Source: Beggiatoa leptomitoformis
Lineage (GTDB): Bacteria > Pseudomonadota > Gammaproteobacteria > Beggiatoales > Beggiatoaceae
NCBI RefSeq assembly: GCF_001305575.3
Contig: NZ_CP012373.2
Span: 1,178,001 to 1,242,000 of the forward strand
Reading direction: 5' to 3'
Length of the DNA stretch: 64,000 nt
The position numbers and the translations under genes were made by a program. The stretch's first letter is position 1, and each line of letters starts with the position of its first letter. The notes beneath the pieces are model-generated. The model was not told where the DNA came from. It ran no database searches and was given only the letters and a program-made list of their open reading frames with translations. Below are positions 34,795 to 45,764 of the stretch, one piece after another.

Positions 34795-34942
34795 ACAGGA
34801 TAAATACCAAAAGTGTCTGAATTAGGACTCACAAATATTTGAAAAATTCGTGATGCTTGATTCAGACCACTTGCAATATAATATATTGAATATATTTGTT
34901 TTATGATAGCTGTATGGAAAAATGTTCACTGGAGATTGTTGC

Positions 34943-37453
34943 ATGACAATTACAACTTTCAATACTCGTCGTTTATATAGGATTTATCTTATTGCACTGA
35001 GTTTTGTTACCTTATTATTCATGCTAGAACAATTTCTTATTTATCGGGTAGATTATCACTTTAACCGTCTACAACTCATTAATATTGCTGGACGACAACG
35101 CATGTTAGTAGAAAAAATTAATAAATCTATGTTGGCGGTGAAAGTTTCTCCTACTGATGAGAAACGTCAATATTATTTGGCTCAATTGCGTTATTCGCTG
35201 AAAGAATGGTCAGAAGTACATAAAAGGCTTAAATATGGCGATGATATTAAAGAGTTGTTTTCTAGTTTAAATAGTCCAGAAATTCAACAATACTTTATTG
35301 AAATAGAGGATAGTTATCAATTAATTTATCAGTCTAGTTTAACTTTTTTAGCTTTATTTAGGCAAAATAGTGTTGAGGGAGCATTTCCACCAAGAGCAGA
35401 TGTATTAATGTGGACAATATTAGATAATACACCCAAGTTTATAGATAAAATGGATTTAATTACAAGAACATATTCAGATAATTTAGTCAAGCAATCACAC
35501 CAATTACAATTAATTAATAGTTTATTAATTTTTATCAATTTGAGTATTTTAATTTGGTTAGCAAAGTATTTATTTTACCCAACATTACGCAAAGTTGAAC
35601 AAACACTTATTGCTTTACAATATAGTGAACAATGTTATAAAGAAATTGCTGAATCGCTTGAACAATCTGAAATACACTTTTCTGCATTAGCGGTACGACA
35701 AAAAGCCATTATGGATAACGTTTTAAATGGCATTATTACCATCAATACAGCAGGTATTATTGATTCCTTTAATAAATCTGCCGAAAAAATCTTTGCCTAT
35801 TCTGAAGCAGATGTTTTAGGGAAAAATATTAATTGTCTTATGCCTGAACCTTATAAAGAAGCACATGATGGATATTTACGTCGATATTTACAAACAAATG
35901 AAGCCCGTATCATTGGCATAGGACGGGATGTTTTTGGTAGGCGCAAAGATGGTTCAACGTTTCCTTTACATTTGGGTCTCAGTGTTGTTGAAATTAATGG
36001 TGAGAAAATATTTATTGGGATTGTACAAGATATTACTGAAGCAAAGCATATTGAGCTAGAATTAAAACAAAGCAAAGAGCAGGCAGAACGTGCAAATTTA
36101 GCAAAGAGTGCCTTTTTAGCAAATATGAGTCATGAATTACGTACTCCCCTAAATGGCATTTTAGGTTATACACAGTTATTAAATCGGGATAAATCACTAA
36201 CCGATAAGCAAAGAGAAAGCATAGGTATTATTAACCGAAGTGGTCAACATTTATTAAACCTTATCAATGATGTTCTTGATTTATCAAAAATTGAAGCGGA
36301 TAGGCTGGAGTTAATACCAAAAAATGTAATTTTATTACCTTTTTTGTATGAAACCGTTGAATTATTACAGATGCAGGCGCAACAGAAAAATATTATTTTA
36401 CGGATTGAATTGGGAACAAATTTGCCTGATGTTGTTTACGTCGATGAAAAACGCCTCCGCCAAATCATCTTAAATTTACTGAGTAACGCGGTAAAGTTTA
36501 CCCAACGAGGTGAGGTTGTTTTTAGCGTTATTCAATCAGATATAGGTGTTCAATTTGCTGTACAGGATACAGGACGTGGAATTGCAGAAAAGGATTTAGC
36601 AACACTATTCAAGCCATTTCAACAAGTTGGTGATTTATTGGTAGAGGTAGAAGGAACGGGGTTAGGACTCGCGATTAGCTACCGCTTAGTAGAAAAAATG
36701 GGCGGACAATTAAAAGTTATCAGTACGTTAATGAGTGGTAGCCGTTTTTGGTTTGATATTCCCTTACCTATTGTGCAGCAACAAACCATACGCACGGAAA
36801 CAGCGACCGAATCAACAACGATTATTGGTATCGTAGGACAGCCACCTACCTTATTAGTTGTTGATAATGTCCTTGAAAATCGGTCGTTTCTAACCATGAT
36901 ATTACGCGATATCGGTTTTACTGTTTTGGAGGCAGATAATGGGCAAGCAGCACTGTCTTTGTTAGCAACACAGACACCTGATGCATTATTAACCGATTTA
37001 CGTATGCCTATTATGAATGGTGTTGAATTAATAAAGAATATTCGTCAAGAGCCATTATTACACAGTATGGTTATTATCGCCATGTCTGCCAGTATTGCTA
37101 AACAGCAGTCTGATTATCTCACGCTTGGTTGCTCTGCCTTTCTTGCCAAGCCAATTCAATTAGATAGCTTATTTAGGTTGTTACAAGAACATCTGGGTGT
37201 ACAGTGGATTTATGCAGAAAAGCCCCGACAACAAGCCCCGATTACGTGCATCTTACAAACAGAGCAAATAAATCGTTTGTTGGACTATGTCAAATGTGGC
37301 AAAGTGCGTGCGGTTTTAACTTATGTGGACGAGTTAGCCAAACAAGATACGCAGTTTAGCGATTTTAGGGATAAAGTTAAGCTATTAGCCCAACAGTTCG
37401 ATATGGATAAATTAGCCGCATTGGTCCGTTTGTACAGTTCATCAGATAATTAA
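34943..37453 (+). CDS. Hybrid sensor histidine kinase with PilJ/NarX-type input, PAS and receiver
   Basis: About 836 residues. Helix 1 is followed by a periplasmic domain beginning LINIAGRQRMLVEKI, the PilJ/NarX-type P-box, then helix 2 near 200-220. The PAS domain (about 260-380) has the FixL-like end FGRRKDGSTFPLHL. HisKA carries the phospho-His in NMSHELRTPLNGIL; the ATPase shows NLLSNAVKFT, DTGRGI and GTGLGLAIS. The receiver at 650-760 has LLTDLRMP but VVDNV in place of the usual VDDx. GGAGATTGTTGC supports ATG 34943. It lies just upstream of lutB. NarX-like P-boxes sense nitrate or nitrite in some proteins; the ligand here is unknown. Confidence 0.87.
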   Translation: MTITTFNTRRLYRIYLIALSFVTLLFMLEQFLIYRVDYHFNRLQLINIAGRQRMLVEKINKSMLAVKVSPTDEKRQYYLAQLRYSLKEWSEVHKRLKYGDDIKELFSSLNSPEIQQYFIEIEDSYQLIYQSSLTFLALFRQNSVEGAFPPRADVLMWTILDNTPKFIDKMDLITRTYSDNLVKQSHQLQLINSLLIFINLSILIWLAKYLFYPTLRKVEQTLIALQYSEQCYKEIAESLEQSEIHFSALAVRQKAIMDNVLNGIITINTAGIIDSFNKSAEKIFAYSEADVLGKNINCLMPEPYKEAHDGYLRRYLQTNEARIIGIGRDVFGRRKDGSTFPLHLGLSVVEINGEKIFIGIVQDITEAKHIELELKQSKEQAERANLAKSAFLANMSHELRTPLNGILGYTQLLNRDKSLTDKQRESIGIINRSGQHLLNLINDVLDLSKIEADRLELIPKNVILLPFLYETVELLQMQAQQKNIILRIELGTNLPDVVYVDEKRLRQIILNLLSNAVKFTQRGEVVFSVIQSDIGVQFAVQDTGRGIAEKDLATLFKPFQQVGDLLVEVEGTGLGLAISYRLVEKMGGQLKVISTLMSGSRFWFDIPLPIVQQQTIRTETATESTTIIGIVGQPPTLLVVDNVLENRSFLTMILRDIGFTVLEADNGQAALSLLATQTPDALLTDLRMPIMNGVELIKNIRQEPLLHSMVIIAMSASIAKQQSDYLTLGCSAFLAKPIQLDSLFRLLQEHLGVQWIYAEKPRQQAPITCILQTEQINRLLDYVKCGKVRAVLTYVDELAKQDTQFSDFRDKVKLLAQQFDMDKLAALVRLYSSSDN

Positions 37454-37531: not shown

Positions 37532-38959
37532 ATGCAATCCCAATCTCATGATTTTAAACAGCGAGCTACCGTTGCCTTACAAGATGTTCAATTGCAAAAG
37601 GCAATGGCAAACGCCAAAACAGGATTTATCGATAAACGGCGTAATGCCGTGCAAGCCCTACCAGAATTTGAAGCCTTGCGCACACGGGCAAAAGAGATTA
37701 AGGAGCATACCTTAAGCCATTTAGATTTTTACCTAGAACAGTTTGAAAAACAAGTTATTGCCAGTGGTGGACAAGTGCATTGGGCAGATACCGCCGAAAC
37801 AGCACGCACTATCATTGTTAAGCTCTGTCAACAAGCCAATGCCAAAGTGATTACTAAGGGTAAATCCATGATTGGTGAAGAAATCGCCATTAATGAAGCC
37901 CTAGAAGCGAATCATTTTGAAGTCGTAGAAACGGATTTGGGTGAATATATTATTCAACTTGCCAAAGAACCGCCTAGCCATATCATCGCGCCTGCCGTGC
38001 ATAAAACCCGTGAACAAATTACCGAGTTATTTCATCAACATCACCAACAGTATGGTTTAACTGAAAAGCAAACTGAGCGTGCTGCGTTAGTAAATGAAGC
38101 CCGTCAAGTCTTGCGGAAAAAATACCTTGCGGCAGATGTGGGTATTACTGGTGCAAATTTTCTTGTCGCAGAAACAGGCTCTACGGTCATTGTAACGAAT
38201 GAGGGGAATGGGGATTTAACCAATTGCTTACCGCGTGTGCATATTGTCACTGCTAGTATTGATAAGGTTATCCCAACCCTAGAAGACATGACAACTATCA
38301 TTCGTTTGCTAGGTCGTAGTGCTACAGGGCAAGAAATGACGGCCTACACCACCTTGACAACGGGTATAAAACAAACGGGTGATTTAAGTGGTGTTTCTGA
38401 ATTTCATGTAGTGTTATTAGACAACGGACGCTCACGCATGTTGGGCAATGAATTTCATGACATGTTGCGCTGTATTCGATGTGGTGCGTGTTTAAACCAT
38501 TGTCCTGTTTATGGTTCTATTGGCGGTCATGCTTATGGTTGGGTTTATCCCGGACCTATGGGGTCGGTTTTAACCCCCATTATGCTGGGTTTGCAAGAAG
38601 CGGGGGATTTACCCAATGCCTGCACGCTGAATGGACGCTGTCAACAAGTCTGCCCAATGAGCATTCCTTTACCCACTATGTTACGCCACCACCGCATTCG
38701 TCAGTTTAAACAAGGATTAGTTCATGGTCGCACCCGCTGGGCATTGCAACTGTGGGTATTTTTTGCCAAACATCCCGTTTTGTATCAACTAAGCACGGCA
38801 ACAAAAGCACGGTTATTAGGATGGTTAGGCAAAAAACGCGGTTATTTTAGCCATTTACCTTTTGCCTCTGCATGGACAGCGACACGCGATATGCCCGCCC
38901 CACAAGGGGAAACATTTATGGCACAGTGGAAACGCTTAAATAAGGGGTTAAACAAATGA
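37532..38959 (+). CDS. lutB: LutB/LldF-type iron-sulfur protein of L-lactate utilisation
   Basis: 475 residues. The N-terminal LUD domain (about 60-300) includes SMIGEEIAINEALE and GVTGANFLVAETG-type sequence. The ferredoxin-like part has CIRCGACLNHCPVY and then CTLNGRCQQVCP, where the usual second Cys of the second cluster is Asn, so that cluster may have fewer Cys ligands. LutABC together oxidise L-lactate to pyruvate in the cytosol. A good ribosome site (GAGGAG) precedes it. lutC overlaps the stop by four bases; no lutA is seen upstream. Confidence 0.92.
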   Translation: MQSQSHDFKQRATVALQDVQLQKAMANAKTGFIDKRRNAVQALPEFEALRTRAKEIKEHTLSHLDFYLEQFEKQVIASGGQVHWADTAETARTIIVKLCQQANAKVITKGKSMIGEEIAINEALEANHFEVVETDLGEYIIQLAKEPPSHIIAPAVHKTREQITELFHQHHQQYGLTEKQTERAALVNEARQVLRKKYLAADVGITGANFLVAETGSTVIVTNEGNGDLTNCLPRVHIVTASIDKVIPTLEDMTTIIRLLGRSATGQEMTAYTTLTTGIKQTGDLSGVSEFHVVLLDNGRSRMLGNEFHDMLRCIRCGACLNHCPVYGSIGGHAYGWVYPGPMGSVLTPIMLGLQEAGDLPNACTLNGRCQQVCPMSIPLPTMLRHHRIRQFKQGLVHGRTRWALQLWVFFAKHPVLYQLSTATKARLLGWLGKKRGYFSHLPFASAWTATRDMPAPQGETFMAQWKRLNKGLNK

Positions 38960-39606
38960 CAGACACACGCCAGACTATTTTTAATCAAATTCGCCAATCA
39001 CTAGGACGGCAAGAATCCGTTAACGAGCTAACCCGTCAACATTTAGAAGCGCGATTACAACAGCATACGATACATGAACAACCTGCATTAAATTTGTCTT
39101 TGTTAGATAAGTTTATTTACCAAGTAGAAAAAGTAGCGGGAACGTGTGAACAGGTAGAACAGTTGAGCGATGTACCTGCTTGTCTTATGCGCTATTTACA
39201 CACGCAACAACTACCAACAAGCGTTGTGATGGACCGCCATTTAAAAGAATTAGCGTGGTCATCTGCGTTGACTGTTGCGTATCGTTCAGCCCAAATTGAC
39301 GATTTAGTCAGTGTAACCCATGCTTTTGCAGGTGTTGCGGAAACAGGCAGCATAGTGATGTTATCAAGTCCTGAAAGTCCAACAACCCTAAATTTCTTAC
39401 CCGATGTCCATATTGTTATTTTATCTCGTGCCGATTTACTTCCCCATATTGAATCTGTTTGGGAAAAATTACGTCACACAAATAAAGCAATACCGCGCAC
39501 GGTCAACTTTATTACAGGCCCTTCTCGTACAGCCGATATTGAACAAACTATCCAGCTTGGGGCGCATGGTCCAAGACGATTACATATCATCCTAGTTCAC
39601 GAATAG
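38956..39606 (+). CDS. lutC: LutC/YkgG family LUD-domain protein
   Basis: 216 residues, a single LUD domain. AGVAETGSIVMLSSPESPTTLNFLPDVHIV and TGPSRTADIEQTIQLGAHGPR are typical LutC blocks. It starts within the lutB stop (ATGA), showing translational coupling, and works with LutA and LutB in lactate oxidation; its own catalytic role is unclear in the family. It is the last gene of the pair. Confidence 0.92.
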   Translation: MTDTRQTIFNQIRQSLGRQESVNELTRQHLEARLQQHTIHEQPALNLSLLDKFIYQVEKVAGTCEQVEQLSDVPACLMRYLHTQQLPTSVVMDRHLKELAWSSALTVAYRSAQIDDLVSVTHAFAGVAETGSIVMLSSPESPTTLNFLPDVHIVILSRADLLPHIESVWEKLRHTNKAIPRTVNFITGPSRTADIEQTIQLGAHGPRRLHIILVHE

Positions 39607-40039: not shown

Positions 40040-40411
40040 ATGAGCAAAACCGTGTTAGTTGTTGATGATGAACCTAATATTTTATTGTCACTAGAATTTC
40101 TCATGAAACAGGCGAATTACAGCGTTCGTACTGCAAGAGATGGTGACGAAGCCTTAAAAGCGGTAGAAACCGCCCCACCTGATTTAATCCTCCTTGATGT
40201 CAACATGCCAAAAAAAAGTGGCTATCAAGTCTGTGAAATTATTCGCGCAAATCCTGCTTGGAAAACAATTCGTATCGTCATGTTGACCGCAAAAGGGCGT
40301 GATATTGAACGAGAAAAAGGACTTGCATTAGGGGCAGACGAATATATTACAAAACCATTCGCCACCCAAGAAGTTGTTGATAAAGTTAAAGAACTATTGG
40401 CGGTAGTATGA
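40040..40411 (+). CDS. Single-domain response regulator coupled to the sensor-exonuclease gene
   Basis: A 123-residue receiver domain with [15 protein letters not shown] (acidic pair), phospho-Asp in [14 protein letters not shown] and Lys in [10 protein letters not shown]. It has no output domain. AAAGGAGAATGGAACA gives a strong ribosome site. Its stop overlaps the start of the next gene by four bases (ATGA), so both are made together and likely act together. The partner has a kinase-like region lacking the phospho-His, so the phosphodonor for this receiver is uncertain. Confidence 0.9.
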
Positions 40412-42498
40412 GCGCGAGAACTCAATTTTGGTTAGGTTTTTTCGCCGCTATCAGCGTTAATCTAGCAATTTTTGTGGGTGGCTGGTTCTTATTGCTCGAT
40501 AAAATTGTTGATACTGACCAACGTAATGCCTTTGAAGGCTTTTTAGCCGTTGGTGGATTTGCCAGTTTTTCAGTGTTGGCAATTGTGTGGATGTCTTTGG
40601 ATAATAAACTTTTTTTTCCCTTGCAATGGATTATTCGTGGCATAGAAATTATGCTACATAGTAACCCTTCGCATAAACTGGAATTAAATCGTTTTCACCT
40701 GCTGACTGACCTTGCTAAAGTCGTGCAAGCATTAGGAGATAGGCATCACAAAACCCGCATGGAACTAGCACAAACGGTTGCAAGCAGTGCTATCAAAATG
40801 GAAACGCAAAAATTGCGTTTAGAAACTATTTTGCGCGATTTAGACAGCGGTGTCATTGTCTGTGATAATCAAGGACGTGTCGTGCTTTATAATCCTGCTG
40901 CACTGCATATTTTAGGCAATCATGCAGCCCTTGGTTTGGGGCGTTCTATTTATGAACTGTTCGCCCGCGCGCCTGTAGAACATACCTTAGAAATGTTACG
41001 GTTACGCACCAGTCGTGATAAACACACAAAACAAGAAGGTGAATTTGTCTGTAGCGCACAAGATACGAATAGCCTATATCATTGTCGCCTAGCCCGTTCT
41101 ATTGAACAAGGAACAGAAACAGGCTTTGTCTTGGCTTTTAACGACGTTACGCACCGTTTAGAGTCATTACAACAACGCGAACACCAATTACAACACCTGA
41201 TTGATGACTACCGTAGTCCCCTCGCCAATTTACGCGCAGCGGCGGAAACACTAACGAACCATACCAACATGGAGCAAATCACCCGCCATGCGTTTTACAA
41301 TATCATTGTTCAAGAAAGTACTCGACTTAGCCATTATTTAGAAAATATCGCTAAAGAATCTCAAGTACTTGCCAGTAATCAATGGTCTATGGCCGATGTC
41401 TATTCTGACGATATAATAAACTGTATTATCAATAAATTAGATAAAAGTAAACGGATTATCTTAACACCGATTGGCACACCACTATGGTTACATGTAGATG
41501 GTTATGCCTTAATTCTATTACTCACACACTTAGTGAATAAAATTGTTGATTATCTGGATGTTAAAGAAATCACGATAGAACCGCTAATGGGTAATCGACG
41601 CGTGTATCTGGATATTATTTGGCAAGGACAACCCGTTTCTGACACCGTATTGGATGTATGGACGCGAGAAACCCTTCCGAATGCAATGGGTGCGAAAACG
41701 GTACGCGAAATTCTTAATATTCATGATAGCGATTTGTGGAGTCAACCGCATCGTCTTCAACAAGCCGCACTGTTACGGTTGCCATTACCAGCTTCTCGTC
41801 GTCAATGGGAACAACCGCGAGAAACCCTTGCGCCTCGCCCTGAGTTTTATGACTTTCAATTGCCTGAAAATTTACTGGGCGATATGGCAGACCGTCCATT
41901 ATCTTCATTAGAATTTGTTGTTTTTGATACAGAAACAACCGGTTTAAGACCTTCTGAAGGGGACGAAATTATTTCAATTGCAGGCGTGCGTGTGGTTAAC
42001 GGACGGATTTTGAGCGGAGAAGCCTTTCAATATCTAGTCAATCCCAATAAATCCATTCCTAAAGCCTCCATTCGTTTTCATGGTATCACCGATGAAATGG
42101 TTAAAGATAAACCCACAATTCAAAGTGTGTTACCTAAGTTTAAAACGTTTGCGGGTGATGCCGTTTTGGTCGGACATAATGTCGCGTTTGATATGAAATT
42201 TTTGAGTATGAAAGAAAGCTCGACAGGCATTCGGTTTACTAATCCCGTGTTGGATACTTTATTAATTTCGGGCTATCTCCATCCACATACAGAAAATCAT
42301 TACTTAGACAGTATTGCGGAACGCTTAGGTGTGGATATTAGCGGGCGGCACACTGCCATTGGTGATGCGTTGGCAACCGCTGAAGTTTTTTTGCGCCTGT
42401 TAGACTTACTTATCGCGCGTGGAATAACCACGTTAGGGCAAGCCGTTAGTGCGTCGGAAGAGTTAGTTGCGGTAAAAAAACAACAGGCGAAATTTTAA
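40408..42498 (+). CDS. Membrane PAS / pseudo-histidine-kinase / DnaQ-type exonuclease fusion
   Basis: A 696-residue protein. Two helices (about 9-30 and 45-65) anchor it, followed by a HAMP-like linker and a PAS domain (about 135-250; [21 protein letters not shown]). A HisKA-like segment reads [19 protein letters not shown], with no His at the phosphorylation position, and the ATPase-like part lacks clear N and G boxes. From about residue 500 lies a DEDDh 3'-5' exonuclease of the DnaQ/PolC family: [21 protein letters not shown] and [17 protein letters not shown] carry the acidic and His active-site residues. It overlaps the receiver gene. The substrate (DNA, RNA or nucleotide) is unknown. Confidence 0.87.
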
Positions 42499-42511
42499 TA
42501 AGGAACATATT

Positions 42512-43498
42512 GTGAAAATCATTTTTCTGAGTGTGTTTTTATGGTTATGTAGTGCAGCAAGTATGGCTGAATCCCTGTTTTTTCAGGATGAGCCTTCATT
42601 GGTAAATGCCTTAAAAACGGTACAAACCACTCAGAAAAAAGGGGTATTTCTCTTTATTGAATCTGCTGCCCATTGTCCGCTGTGTAACTATATGCAGGCT
42701 ATTGTTTTTCCAGAAAAAACTGTTACTGATTTTTATCAGCAACATTTCGTGAGCGTATTACTGAATGCGGATAGTCAAACAGCAATAATTGACTTTTCAG
42801 GAAAATCCAGCACTCAACAAATCCTTACTAAACAATTAAATATAGAAAATAAACCGTTACCCCTTGCGCTATTTTTTAATCCACAAGGGGATTTACTTTA
42901 TACTTTTCAAGGTATCAGTCAACAACCTGAGGAATTTCTTTGGTTAGGGGAATATATCAGTACGGAAGCGTATCAACAGTATTCTTTCACCGATTATAAA
43001 CAAGCCCGCTATGCGAGCAATCCACCAAAAAAAGTAGATAGCCAAGCCTTTTTTGATGTGACTTTTGGCGATTTGCAAGCAGAGTTAGAAACAGCTAAAA
43101 AACAGGGAAAGCAAGGGATTATGCTGTTTTTTGAGATGGATGGCTGTCCTTTTTGTAAGCGAATGCGTGAAACGATTTTTACTCAAGCCACCGTACAGGC
43201 TTTTTATAAAAAACACTTTTTAATTTTCCCGATTGATATTTTGGGCGATATAGAACTAACCGATTTTCAAGGTAATCTTGTCAGCAGTAAGGTGTTTAGC
43301 CAAACAACAAATCGAGTTCGCAGTACACCTGTTATCATTTTTTATAGCGTAGAGGGTGAGCCGTTATATCGATTTATGGGCATAACAGAAGATGCACAAA
43401 CGTTTTTATGGCTAGCCGATTATGTATTGTCGGGTGAGTATCAACGTCAACCCTTTAAAGCTTATCAACAAGTTAGACGTAAAATGTCTTCTGAATAA
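42512..43498 (+). CDS. Secreted protein with two thioredoxin-like domains
   Basis: 328 residues with a signal peptide (MKIIFLSVFLWLCSAASMA-ES). Two related thioredoxin-fold halves each carry CxxC: AAHCPLCNYMQ in the first and MDGCPFCKRMRET in the second. Each is followed by a region like PLALFFNPQGDLLYTFQG / TPVIIFYSVEGEPLYRFMG with the cis-Pro area. This resembles SoxW/DUF255-type thioredoxins that reduce periplasmic disulfides. The GTG at 42512 is supported by AAGGAAC. It follows the sensor-exonuclease gene by 13 bases and could be in the same transcript. Confidence 0.82.
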   Translation: MKIIFLSVFLWLCSAASMAESLFFQDEPSLVNALKTVQTTQKKGVFLFIESAAHCPLCNYMQAIVFPEKTVTDFYQQHFVSVLLNADSQTAIIDFSGKSSTQQILTKQLNIENKPLPLALFFNPQGDLLYTFQGISQQPEEFLWLGEYISTEAYQQYSFTDYKQARYASNPPKKVDSQAFFDVTFGDLQAELETAKKQGKQGIMLFFEMDGCPFCKRMRETIFTQATVQAFYKKHFLIFPIDILGDIELTDFQGNLVSSKVFSQTTNRVRSTPVIIFYSVEGEPLYRFMGITEDAQTFLWLADYVLSGEYQRQPFKAYQQVRRKMSSE

Positions 43499-43574: not shown

Positions 43575-44489
43575 TTATAAAATAATATCCATCCCATCTT
43601 CAGCAACTTCAATATGATGTGCGGTTAGTTCCGCCCGTTCTGCTGAGTCTTCGATTAAAATTGGATTGGTATTATTGATGTGAATTAAAATCTTACGGGG
43701 TTTTGATAGGGTATCTAAAAAGGCTATCATGCCATCTTCACCCGATTGGGGTAAATGTCCAATTTCCCGCGCGCGTTTTGTAGCAACCCCTGTATGGATT
43801 AATTCGTCTTCGTGCCAAAATGTTCCATCAACCAAGACACAATCTGTTTTTTGCAAATAAGGCAGTACATGCGCCTCAATCGCACCCAGTCCCGGTGCAT
43901 AAAACACGCTTTTCTGGGTTTGCAAGTCTTCAATATAAACCCCAATATTATCACCAAGATGTGGTTGGTCACGGTGGGGTGAGTAAGGCGGAGCTTTACT
44001 GGATAAGGCAATCGCGGTAAAGCGTAAATGGTTAATCTCAGGAATAGTAAAGGATTGTTCATCAATCGGAACAGTATGGCGATTAACGCCGCCATTCCAA
44101 TGCGTTAGCATATTAAAAATAGGAAATCCTGTCGTTAAATCCTGATAAACCATATCGGTACAATAAACGTTTAACGGCATTCCCTCGCGCAACATTAATA
44201 AACCCGTTGTGTGGTCTATTTGGCTGTCAACAAAAATAATCGCGCTAATCCCTGTATCTCTTAATGTTCTTGCTGGCTGAATGTCAGGAAAGCTTAGGAG
44301 TTGTGCGCGAATATCAGGCGAGGTATTGAATAATACCCAGTGTTCATTATCGGTACTCACCGCAATAGAGGATTGAGTACGTGGTTTTGCGTGTAGTGTT
44401 CCTTCTCGTACACCTTTAGAATTCTTATAGTTACAATTCCATTGTGGAAAACCACCACCCGCAGCAGAGCCTAGAATGTGTATGCGCAT
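43575..44489 (-). CDS. pqqB: Pyrroloquinoline quinone biosynthesis protein PqqB
   Basis: 304 residues, the usual PqqB length. The start [19 protein letters not shown] is diagnostic. The metallo-beta-lactamase-like metal motif appears as [13 protein letters not shown], with HINNTNPI near the C-terminus. PqqB hydroxylates a glutamate-tyrosine-derived intermediate in PQQ synthesis. pqqA lies 104 bases upstream. The usual next genes, pqqC, pqqD and pqqE, are not downstream: a convergent thioredoxin-like gene ends there. Confidence 0.96.
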
Positions 44490-45221: not shown

Positions 45222-45755
45222 TTATGGTGTCACTATATCCCCAACGCGTAAAAGATTTGCGTCAATACGTAAACCGACCCCTTTTGAGAGGTCGGGGTTA
45301 ATAAAAAAACGGACCTTGTTATCGCGGATATAAAATTCAATCATACCACCTAAATGAATAAAATCTTTAATATCACTAACGGTAAGAATGGGGGAATGTT
45401 GAATAAGGGTTAAAATACTGTCCAGTTCGGCTGATTCTGATTTAGCAATAAAAAGAATATGACAACCGAGTATATTTTTTTGTTGATTGATATATAAGGC
45501 TTCAATGGGTAATCCGTTGACTGTTTCATTGGCAACCGCTAAGTCTAGCGATTTTCCAAATGGATTTTCACCAAAAACACAGATTTTAAAGGTGTTTGTC
45601 GTCAGTGCCTCAGTTGTCCACTCTATAAAGCTACTGTAACGGAAGAGGTACATGGCTTTTAGCTGTGATTCACTTAGACTGAGGTCACCCGCGTAAAGCA
45701 TATTTGTATAGCTCAAACACAATAGCAGGATAGAAAAATAATGCTTATGTAACAC
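45222..45755 (-). CDS. YfiR-family periplasmic protein (DUF4154)
   Basis: About 177 residues with a signal peptide (MLHKHYFSILLLCLSYT..., cleavage near YAG). Family blocks are ESQLKAMYLFRYSSFIEW, FKICVFGENPFGKSL, GCHILFIAKSE and IEFYIRDNKVRFFINPDLSK. In Pseudomonas, YfiR restrains the membrane diguanylate cyclase YfiN; here no yfiN or yfiB is adjacent, so the partner is elsewhere. GTG at 45755 is chosen since AGAGG lies nine bases upstream, whereas the ATG at 45764 is too close to that site. Confidence 0.85.
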   Translation of the reverse strand: MLHKHYFSILLLCLSYTNMLYAGDLSLSESQLKAMYLFRYSSFIEWTTEALTTNTFKICVFGENPFGKSLDLAVANETVNGLPIEALYINQQKNILGCHILFIAKSESAELDSILTLIQHSPILTVSDIKDFIHLGGMIEFYIRDNKVRFFINPDLSKGVGLRIDANLLRVGDIVTP

Positions 45756-45764
45756 TAAGAGCAT

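Follow-up and report, generated by a model that had tools for sequence, protein, structure and literature searches.

Two-component systems usually end in transcription, in cyclic-di-nucleotide turnover or in protein docking. In the CbrA/CbrB system the kinase CbrA is not known to carry a fused receiver, and CbrB is an NtrC-type transcription factor. Here, we describe a gene pair of Beggiatoa leptomitoformis that encodes a stand-alone receiver and a membrane protein joining a PAS domain, a pseudokinase and a DEDDh exonuclease. The pair occupies positions 40040 to 42498 of a 64,000-nt stretch of contig NZ_CP012373.2, which is called the window in the following; the genome itself is denoted G000. 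With a probability of roughly 0.6, we read the pair as the downstream half of a two-component pathway starting from an SLC5 transceptor, in which the phosphorylated receiver would dock on the pseudokinase and gate the membrane exonuclease.

The proposed pathway resembles CbrA/CbrB in its SLC5-histidine kinase and in the transceptor idea (PMC13022988); an exonuclease partner is not mentioned in the parts of that source examined. With CrbS/CrbR (MxtR/ErdR) of Vibrio and Pseudomonas it shares an SLC5-fused kinase, an acetate/pyruvate theme and an operon of CBS and RNase_T genes, which is among the targets of that switch. CrbS is a hybrid kinase, and the regulators of CrbS/R and RpuS/R are of the LuxR type according to the parts of PMC9100948 consulted. 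In Pseudomonas putida, the operon consists of pp_0354 (CBS protein) and pp_0353 (a stand-alone RNase_T exonuclease), the pp_0354 promoter is bound by ErdR of the CrbS/R-type system, and in P. aeruginosa the CBS/RNase_T operon adjoins actP (PMC9927547, in part). Deletion of pp_0353 or pp_0354 left growth on acetate normal, and pp_0353 was important on pyruvate; its precise role was unclear to the authors, who mentioned mRNA decay as a possibility (PMC9927547). In contrast to CrbS/CrbR, the system described here has a kinase that lacks a fused receiver and a regulator that lacks a DNA-binding domain; its exonuclease is anchored in the membrane and joined to PAS and pseudokinase parts. We take pp_0354 to be a protein of the DUF294 type, which is an assumption.

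A second relationship leads to DivL of Caulobacter, which has a Tyr at the His position. DivL is a pseudo-histidine kinase read by the single-domain regulator DivK, and loss of DivK accompanies truncation of the kinase part of DivL (PMC9430884, in part). This combination of pseudokinase and single-domain regulator is also found here, and the co-loss resembles the pattern described below for the receiver and the dimerization and histidine phosphotransfer (DHp) hairpin. DivL acts on the kinase CckA, whereas the window-type proteins have Asp or Glu at the His column and a nuclease as output. The nuclease in turn shares fold and five catalytic residues with the DnaQ/PolC DEDDh exonucleases, but forms the C-terminal part of a membrane protein of signalling type and not of a polymerase. 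The known kinds represented here are thus SLC5-kinase two-component systems and DivL-type pseudokinases, and the exonuclease output is the new part as far as the literature search reached. As far as titles and the beginnings of abstracts tell, none of the papers listed in that search deals with a two-component system ending in an exonuclease; subscription literature was mostly outside its scope, so that the absence is a weak one.

Results and Discussion

The receiver gene (40040..40411, forward strand, as are all features of the pair) encodes a single-domain response regulator of 123 amino acids (Response_reg, E 4.5e-30, Pfam). D9, D10, D53, T83 and K105 are all present, and the DD, LLD, MLTA and KPF blocks are conserved to at least 90% in 46 sequences, the window's own counted. 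By Pfam and alignment, the receiver has the conserved DD, phospho-Asp, Thr/Ser and Lys residues of response regulators. Its open reading frame shares an ATGA at 40408 with the following frame (40408..42498, 696 amino acids), in agreement with the coupling of the two genes that had been proposed from the sequence.

The long protein begins with two transmembrane (TM) helices, as had been expected of a membrane protein. By hydropathy, the first comprises approximately residues 5–34 (annotated as residues 5–31, 40420..40500, Kyte-Doolittle peak 2.13) and the second residues 41–64 (40528..40599, peak 1.96); they correspond to helices 3–30 and 36–84 in the AlphaFold2 (AF2) model. Only a short loop separates them, and a long helix then leads to the PAS domain (residues 147–248, 40846..41151, PAS_9 E 2.8e-8). 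AF2 model and alignments place a DHp-like helical hairpin at residues 248–323 (41149..41376). It is followed by a domain resembling the catalytic and ATP-binding (CA, HATPase) domain of kinases without N-box and glycine boxes (residues 329–462, 41392..41793), which was delimited by AF2 secondary structure and the match to 1ysr described below. The RPEFYDF linker (residues 477–483, 41836..41856) precedes the DEDDh exonuclease domain (residues 504–661, 41917..42390, RNase_T E 5.9e-40).

In the original prediction, the middle of this protein was regarded as a sensor kinase body whose phospho-His is missing, and structure prediction was suggested as a check. Both came out as expected. Residue 266, the phospho-His column (placement verified with a true kinase encoded in the window), is Asp in the window protein (codon 41203-41205). 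Across the 40 aligned sequences, of which the window's is one, the column holds Glu 29 times, Asp 5 times, Arg 3 times, Gln twice and Pro once, and never His. This alignment, A1, contains 40 of the 48 extracted proteins, with L122, L125, L137, L131, L135, L138, L030 and L032 omitted. The N, G1 and G2 box residues, invariant in six true kinases, are absent from the aligned pseudokinase region. Pfam gave HisKA at E 0.11 only for residues 258–314 and no match to HATPase_c.

The AF2 model of the full protein (predicted local distance difference test, pLDDT, 82.3; predicted template modelling score, pTM, 0.43) shows a DHp-like hairpin of helices and, after it, an alpha/beta sandwich resembling a CA domain. 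Because of the pTM of 0.43 the placement of the domains relative to each other is unsure; residues 246–470 modelled alone reached a pLDDT of 85.7. Foldseek returned WalK as top match of the whole model (E 2.5e-21), and LvrB and HK853 as top matches of residues 246–470, with RetS structures and DivL (4q20) also among the matches. VIA-align aligned 130 residues to the CA domain of PrrB (1ysr) with Z 15.2 and a root-mean-square deviation of 2.7. Superposition of the whole pseudokinase region gave large deviations (7.8–16.6 Å), that of the CA part alone about 3 Å. On the sequence level, hhalign compared 32 sequences, the window's among them, with six true kinases and yielded a probability of 98.7% over 206 columns, and the family profile matched a VicK-like kinase (4i5s, positions 50–463, E 1.1e-16) and ThkA (3a0r, E 4.3e-11). 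Sequence and model together indicate that residues 246–470 have the DHp-CA fold of a histidine kinase without its phospho-His or ATP motifs.

The C-terminal domain is predicted to be a DEDDh exonuclease of the 3'-5' type whose catalytic residues are intact, which bears out the complete set of motifs reported earlier: D507, E509, D595, H648 and D653 show no substitution in any of the 40 aligned sequences, which include that of the window. In the linker, R477 and D482 are invariant and the remaining five residues are conserved to at least 90% in the same number of sequences. NCBIfam places the domain nearest to DEDD exonucleases and PolC, with scores under their cut-offs. The closest solved folds are the PolC exonuclease (9qpc, Z 25, 32% identity over residues 485–693) and E. 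coli epsilon (Z about 21), and the profile matches the PolC/epsilon-type proofreading exonuclease 2p1j with E 4.2e-48. This closeness to proofreading enzymes would suit a housekeeping DNA or RNA nuclease that is anchored in the membrane by happenstance, with the gene cluster reflecting co-expression only. We consider such a role very unlikely, since the fusion of TM, PAS and pseudokinase parts is retained over several families, the linker motif is nearly invariant, and the exonuclease occurs in single-chain fusions with CBS-DUF294 (L217, L218, L219; see below).

Distribution of the pair

Among the matches listed for 57 relatives, full-length relatives of the exonuclease protein were found in G001 (85% identity), G015 (60%), G019 (59%), G014 (52%) and G050 (34%). 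Named genomes with relatives belong to Competibacteraceae, Terasakiella, Rhodospirillales, Magnetospirillum, Limnobacter and a Rhodobacteraceae metagenome-assembled genome. In a set of 398 Pseudomonadota genomes, the own genome included, 42 contain the exonuclease at E <= 1e-70, some of these matches being partial (e.g. residues 325–695 in G115 and G218). This cut-off, like the 50% identity for kinases and the 20 bits for DHp used below, was set after the lists had been inspected, and some locus stretches are shortened by contig ends. A fusion artefact or chance arrangement, which had been named as a possible refutation, was rejected, as the same architecture recurs at 31–85% identity in many families. 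The design that had been called non-standard for a two-component system is thus a conserved arrangement.

Most relatives also gave matches at about residues 54–285. In G000 the case (L101) is a 738-amino-acid frame followed by a 457-amino-acid regulator-like frame and looks, by the opening residues, like an ordinary sensor-kinase pair. With regard to a defence role, PADLOC returned generic DEDDh and candidate matches only.

The SLC5-kinase as partner

The survey of homologue neighbourhoods that had been suggested showed that the pair travels with an SLC5-kinase, a CBS-DUF294 nucleotidyltransferase and acetate or monocarboxylate permeases across Pseudomonadota. The recurrent module consists of a permease (ActP with DUF485 or SSF with DUF4212), the nucleotidyltransferase, an SLC5-kinase of about 900 amino acids, the receiver and the exonuclease. 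All five members are clustered in L108, L156, L159, L163, L164 and L167, and in L159, L164 and L167 they lie on a single strand. In 42 of 55 exonuclease loci, short contigs included, a kinase, DUF294 or permease gene was found within 9 kb (kinase 19, DUF294 36, permease 24).

In the own genome the module is scattered, with the SLC5-kinase (915 amino acids) at C1:3123250-3125994, ActP at about 3332400-3334100, SSF/DUF4212 at about 630400-632800 and DUF294 at about 1406800-1408700. The kinase consists of SSF, HisKA and HATPase_c without a receiver domain. SSF is matched weakly in these kinases: G000 reaches 23.4 bits (cut-off 22.8), L024 31.7 and L222 21.9, below the cut-off, and the L108 and L026 kinases gave no match at E <= 0.001. 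No STAC domain match turned up in general library scans, which did not include a search aimed at STAC.

An SLC5-kinase of at least 56% identity occurs in 6 of the 57 relatives, the own genome included (G000, G001, G015, G019, G049, G050), and two more have one at 36–41%. Five of the six also have an adjacent receiver and full-length exonuclease. In the sixth, G049, the receiver adjoins the kinase beside an acetate-CoA ligase, and an exonuclease-DUF294 fusion lies about 5 kb away. Within family f1 (36 genomes), the kinase was found, among the matches listed, in precisely the 4 genomes that hold receiver and exonuclease. Across the 398 genomes, 42 have the exonuclease, 34 a close kinase (at least 50% identity) and 30 both (Fisher p 3.7e-31, relatedness ignored); in 23 of these 30, the two genes lie within 1.5 kb on one contig. 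The proposed anatomy of the receiver and the exonuclease-sensor protein stands, but with this frequent adjacency and a pseudokinase resembling the SLC5-kinase the protein is not an isolated sensor.

The 12 exonuclease genomes without a close kinase comprise G139 with a fragment, G315, G291, G330 and G439 with distant kinases (44–46%), and G107, G115, G151, G159, G202, G218 and G323, in which no kinase was found at E <= 1e-60. Conversely, G143, G300, G410 and G414 have a close kinase without the exonuclease. In all three such loci examined (G143, G300, G410) a receiver relative of 60, 48 and 49% identity stands just before the kinase, and no exonuclease was found at E <= 1e-30. Since the receiver adjoins the kinase even there, it belongs with the kinase. 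The exonuclease looks like an optional third member of a kinase-receiver system, and by these comparisons the window's receiver is very probably the cognate receiver of the SLC5-kinase. Pairs of receiver and SLC5-kinase with no exonuclease nearby lie at L220:7154-10593, L221:6901-10289 and L222:2265-5669.

A profile of the pseudokinase (A2, 32 of the 40 A1 sequences, with L139, L140, L141, L145, L028, L029, L031 and L033 omitted) was compared with the candidates scored in eight genomes. After the exonuclease itself, the SLC5-kinase was the best match in 8 of 8 (E 9e-10 to 1.1e-15), and in G000 and G001 nothing else matched at E <= 0.01. Read most simply, the exonuclease protein would carry a dead copy of the SLC5-kinase DHp-CA, and such a copy points to a docking surface for the shared receiver.

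The same kinship would serve a heterodimer, for which RetS-GacS provides the mechanistic model. The pseudokinase would then pair with the SLC5-kinase through a shared DHp four-helix bundle, tether the exonuclease to the transceptor and damp or boost the kinase, while the receiver acts elsewhere. The genes are neighbours in most genomes that have both, RetS structures are among the Foldseek matches, and the occurrence of the receiver beside the kinase where the exonuclease was not found suggests another role for the receiver there. In the window, it is nevertheless the receiver gene and not the kinase gene that is coupled to the exonuclease gene, and G000 keeps receiver and exonuclease together with the kinase at a distance. 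We therefore regard a heterodimer as doubtful, though it is the main rival of docking by the receiver.

Receiver and DHp hairpin

Among exonuclease genes with a receiver (at least 38% identity) upstream, 43 of 46 score at least 20 bits with the DHp profile, compared to 2 of 25 without (Fisher p 2.6e-13, relatedness ignored). A score below 20 bits does not prove absence, as a long, though diverged, stretch is retained in L210, L212, L213 and L173, and the profile leans against the receiver-less Magnetospirillum-type clade because A2 was built without it. The apparent loss in L141/L216 (G202) is unreliable, since the DHp part reads scrambled, probably by a frameshift. The receiver relative of L162 (38.7%) is present in this count and absent from the context count, the cut-offs being different.

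In the receiver-less Magnetospirillum-type clade about 15 hairpin residues are missing in four aligned members, a gap that the A1 alignment shows irrespective of the profile; two of its genomes hold a second cluster of receiver, exonuclease and kinase elsewhere. L214 and L215, from two genomes of one genus, have neither receiver nor DHp, and congeneric relatives have both. These sequence patterns are suggestive of a joint loss of receiver and hairpin.

The CBS-DUF294 nucleotidyltransferase

At least 19 of the 38 DUF294 matches in the relatives (E <= 1e-19) have an exonuclease match no more than 2 kb away, and a pattern scan found an exonuclease-like first motif in 13 of 30 DUF294-exonuclease loci, including those of G000 and G001. 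RNase_T, CBS and DUF294 are joined in a single chain in L217:4503-6617, L218:4037-6148 and L219:6549-8783, with SSF and DUF4212 genes close by in L217 and L219. In L174, CBS-DUF294 is joined to an exonuclease-like stretch (28%) that gave no RNase_T match. The single-chain fusions argue for a dedicated role of the exonuclease and lend support to a writer-eraser scheme. In this scheme the transceptor would control the nuclease post-translationally, CBS-DUF294 as writer would attach nucleotides to a permease, a regulator or an RNA 3' end, and the exonuclease as eraser would take them off again, setting the acetate/pyruvate flux. The scheme as a whole is speculative and we would not expect it to hold; taken by itself, the assignment of the membrane exonuclease as eraser of nucleotidylation is likewise tentative, with the odds well against it.

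Beside CBS-DUF294, G000 has a short exonuclease of 191 amino acids (L100:6268-6843, C1 about 1406267-1406842; NF006601 E 4.7e-50, 169.9 of 189 bits and thus below the cut-off). It resembles the PRK09145 type of 3'-5' exonucleases, which have the same neighbour; it is short, and no membrane or PAS part was seen. In G000 and G001 (L185) its motif I reads E-C-E. No motif III could be located in G001, and in G000 a pattern match at the extreme C-terminus was not accepted as the motif. By sequence, the catalytic motifs of the short enzyme look degraded in both genomes, and perhaps the intact membrane exonuclease relieves it there. In P. fluorescens, a protein that combines cAMP-binding, CBS and nucleotidyltransferase domains has been described, with no mention of a nuclease in the parts of PMC5715377 examined.

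Proposed mechanism

In the proposed pathway, an SLC5/histidine-kinase fusion of the CbrA/CrbS architecture would sense acetate or a related monocarboxylate; ActP, the acetate-CoA ligase and the P. putida work speak for a signal of this type. Phosphotransfer from the SLC5-kinase to the window's receiver is quite likely. The receiver has no output domain; its output partner would be the membrane exonuclease, and control would run from the transceptor to the nuclease. The phosphorylated receiver, or the transceptor itself, would dock on the pseudokinase as a degenerate copy of the transceptor's DHp-CA body and alter the DEDDh exonuclease activity via the RPEFYDF linker, following a logic similar to DivL/DivK. 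We give about even odds to docking of the receiver as the actual switch. The PAS domain may add a second input. The exonuclease would work with the nearby CBS-DUF294 nucleotidyltransferase and probably tune uptake or use of acetate and pyruvate. Single-stranded RNA or DNA 3' ends would be the most likely substrate, and the chance that nucleic-acid 3' ends are attacked at all is perhaps one half. A nuclease for the use of DNA as food was rejected as a candidate, as no such effect was seen in the P. putida analogue (PMC9927547, in part).

Several observations weigh against this pathway. The SLC5-kinase lies 1.9 Mb from the pair in the window's genome, and 13 of the 55 loci have no kinase, DUF294 or permease gene nearby; the window is one of these 13, as are L021, L022, L105 and L106 from its near relatives. 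G107, G151 and G159 have receiver and exonuclease with no kinase found at E <= 1e-60 (assemblies of 200–350 contigs), and G014 has an exonuclease without adjacent receiver, an unlinked receiver relative and no kinase found. Of 7 independent pairs on the tree, 4 agree with the link between receiver and hairpin, none disagrees and 3 are tied (p = 0.125). L165, L169 and L211 score below 20 bits despite a receiver, and L168, L170, L171 and L172 lie just above at 22.6–24.1 bits. Finally, many homologues have no adjacent receiver (Thermodesulfobacteriota L035-L038, L205-L209 and the Magnetospirillum-type L028-L033), from which it follows that the receiver is not needed for the basic function of the exonuclease.

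Among these, L035-L038 are short PAS-exonucleases without detectable pseudokinase or receiver that adjoin DUF294 (PAS_8 and RNase_T shown for L037), and L205-L209, from five genomes of family f74, are exonuclease frames of 467–512 amino acids adjoining DUF294 and SSF genes. These shorter forms would fit an autonomous PAS-sensing exonuclease, in which the N-terminal membrane and PAS part alone sets the activity and pseudokinase and receiver are secondary additions useful in some lineages. As pseudokinase and receiver, the latter with its phosphorylation residues, are conserved across many families, this appears unlikely to us. In L037 and L038, the genes for the SSF-type permease and the short PAS-exonuclease are separated by an isochorismatase-like gene (L037:6658-7206 and L038:3574-4122; Pfam on the L037 copy).

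Neighbouring genes in the window

A two-domain thioredoxin-like protein (Pfam) is encoded 13 bases downstream of the exonuclease gene (42512..43498, forward strand). Its suggested membership in the unit holds at most for the genus: in a tblastn survey covering 28 loci in 23 genomes, some of these loci having short flanks, the gene was found beside the pair only in the same-genus G000 and G001, and it was rejected as a core member outside the genus. Directly upstream of the receiver, a LutB/LldF-type L-lactate oxidation iron-sulfur protein and a LUD-domain protein (37532-39606) form a further monocarboxylate theme. Judged by the opening residues of the open reading frames, they are not upstream of the pair in the same-genus G001. 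A hybrid sensor kinase (PilJ-type N-terminal domain, PAS, kinase, receiver; 34922-37453) shows no visible connection to the pair. Further downstream, a YfiR/HmsC-like periplasmic protein (DUF4154, 45222-45764) is encoded near pqqB (43575-44489). The promoter and terminator scan was uninformative, with 6 promoter-like sites and thus fewer than the 11.3 in shuffles.

Conclusion

If the proposed wiring is correct, a nutrient signal would act at once via a receiver and a dead kinase copy, without a transcription factor. An exonuclease output class and, should the nucleotidyltransferase take part as supposed, a writer-eraser circuit would be added to bacterial signalling, neither of which was found in the literature searched. 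Relatives are found in named species that are in culture, for example Terasakiella pusilla. For Pseudomonas, where the exonuclease/CBS pair of the acetate switch has a pyruvate phenotype without a mechanism, the wiring proposed here offers a testable explanation.

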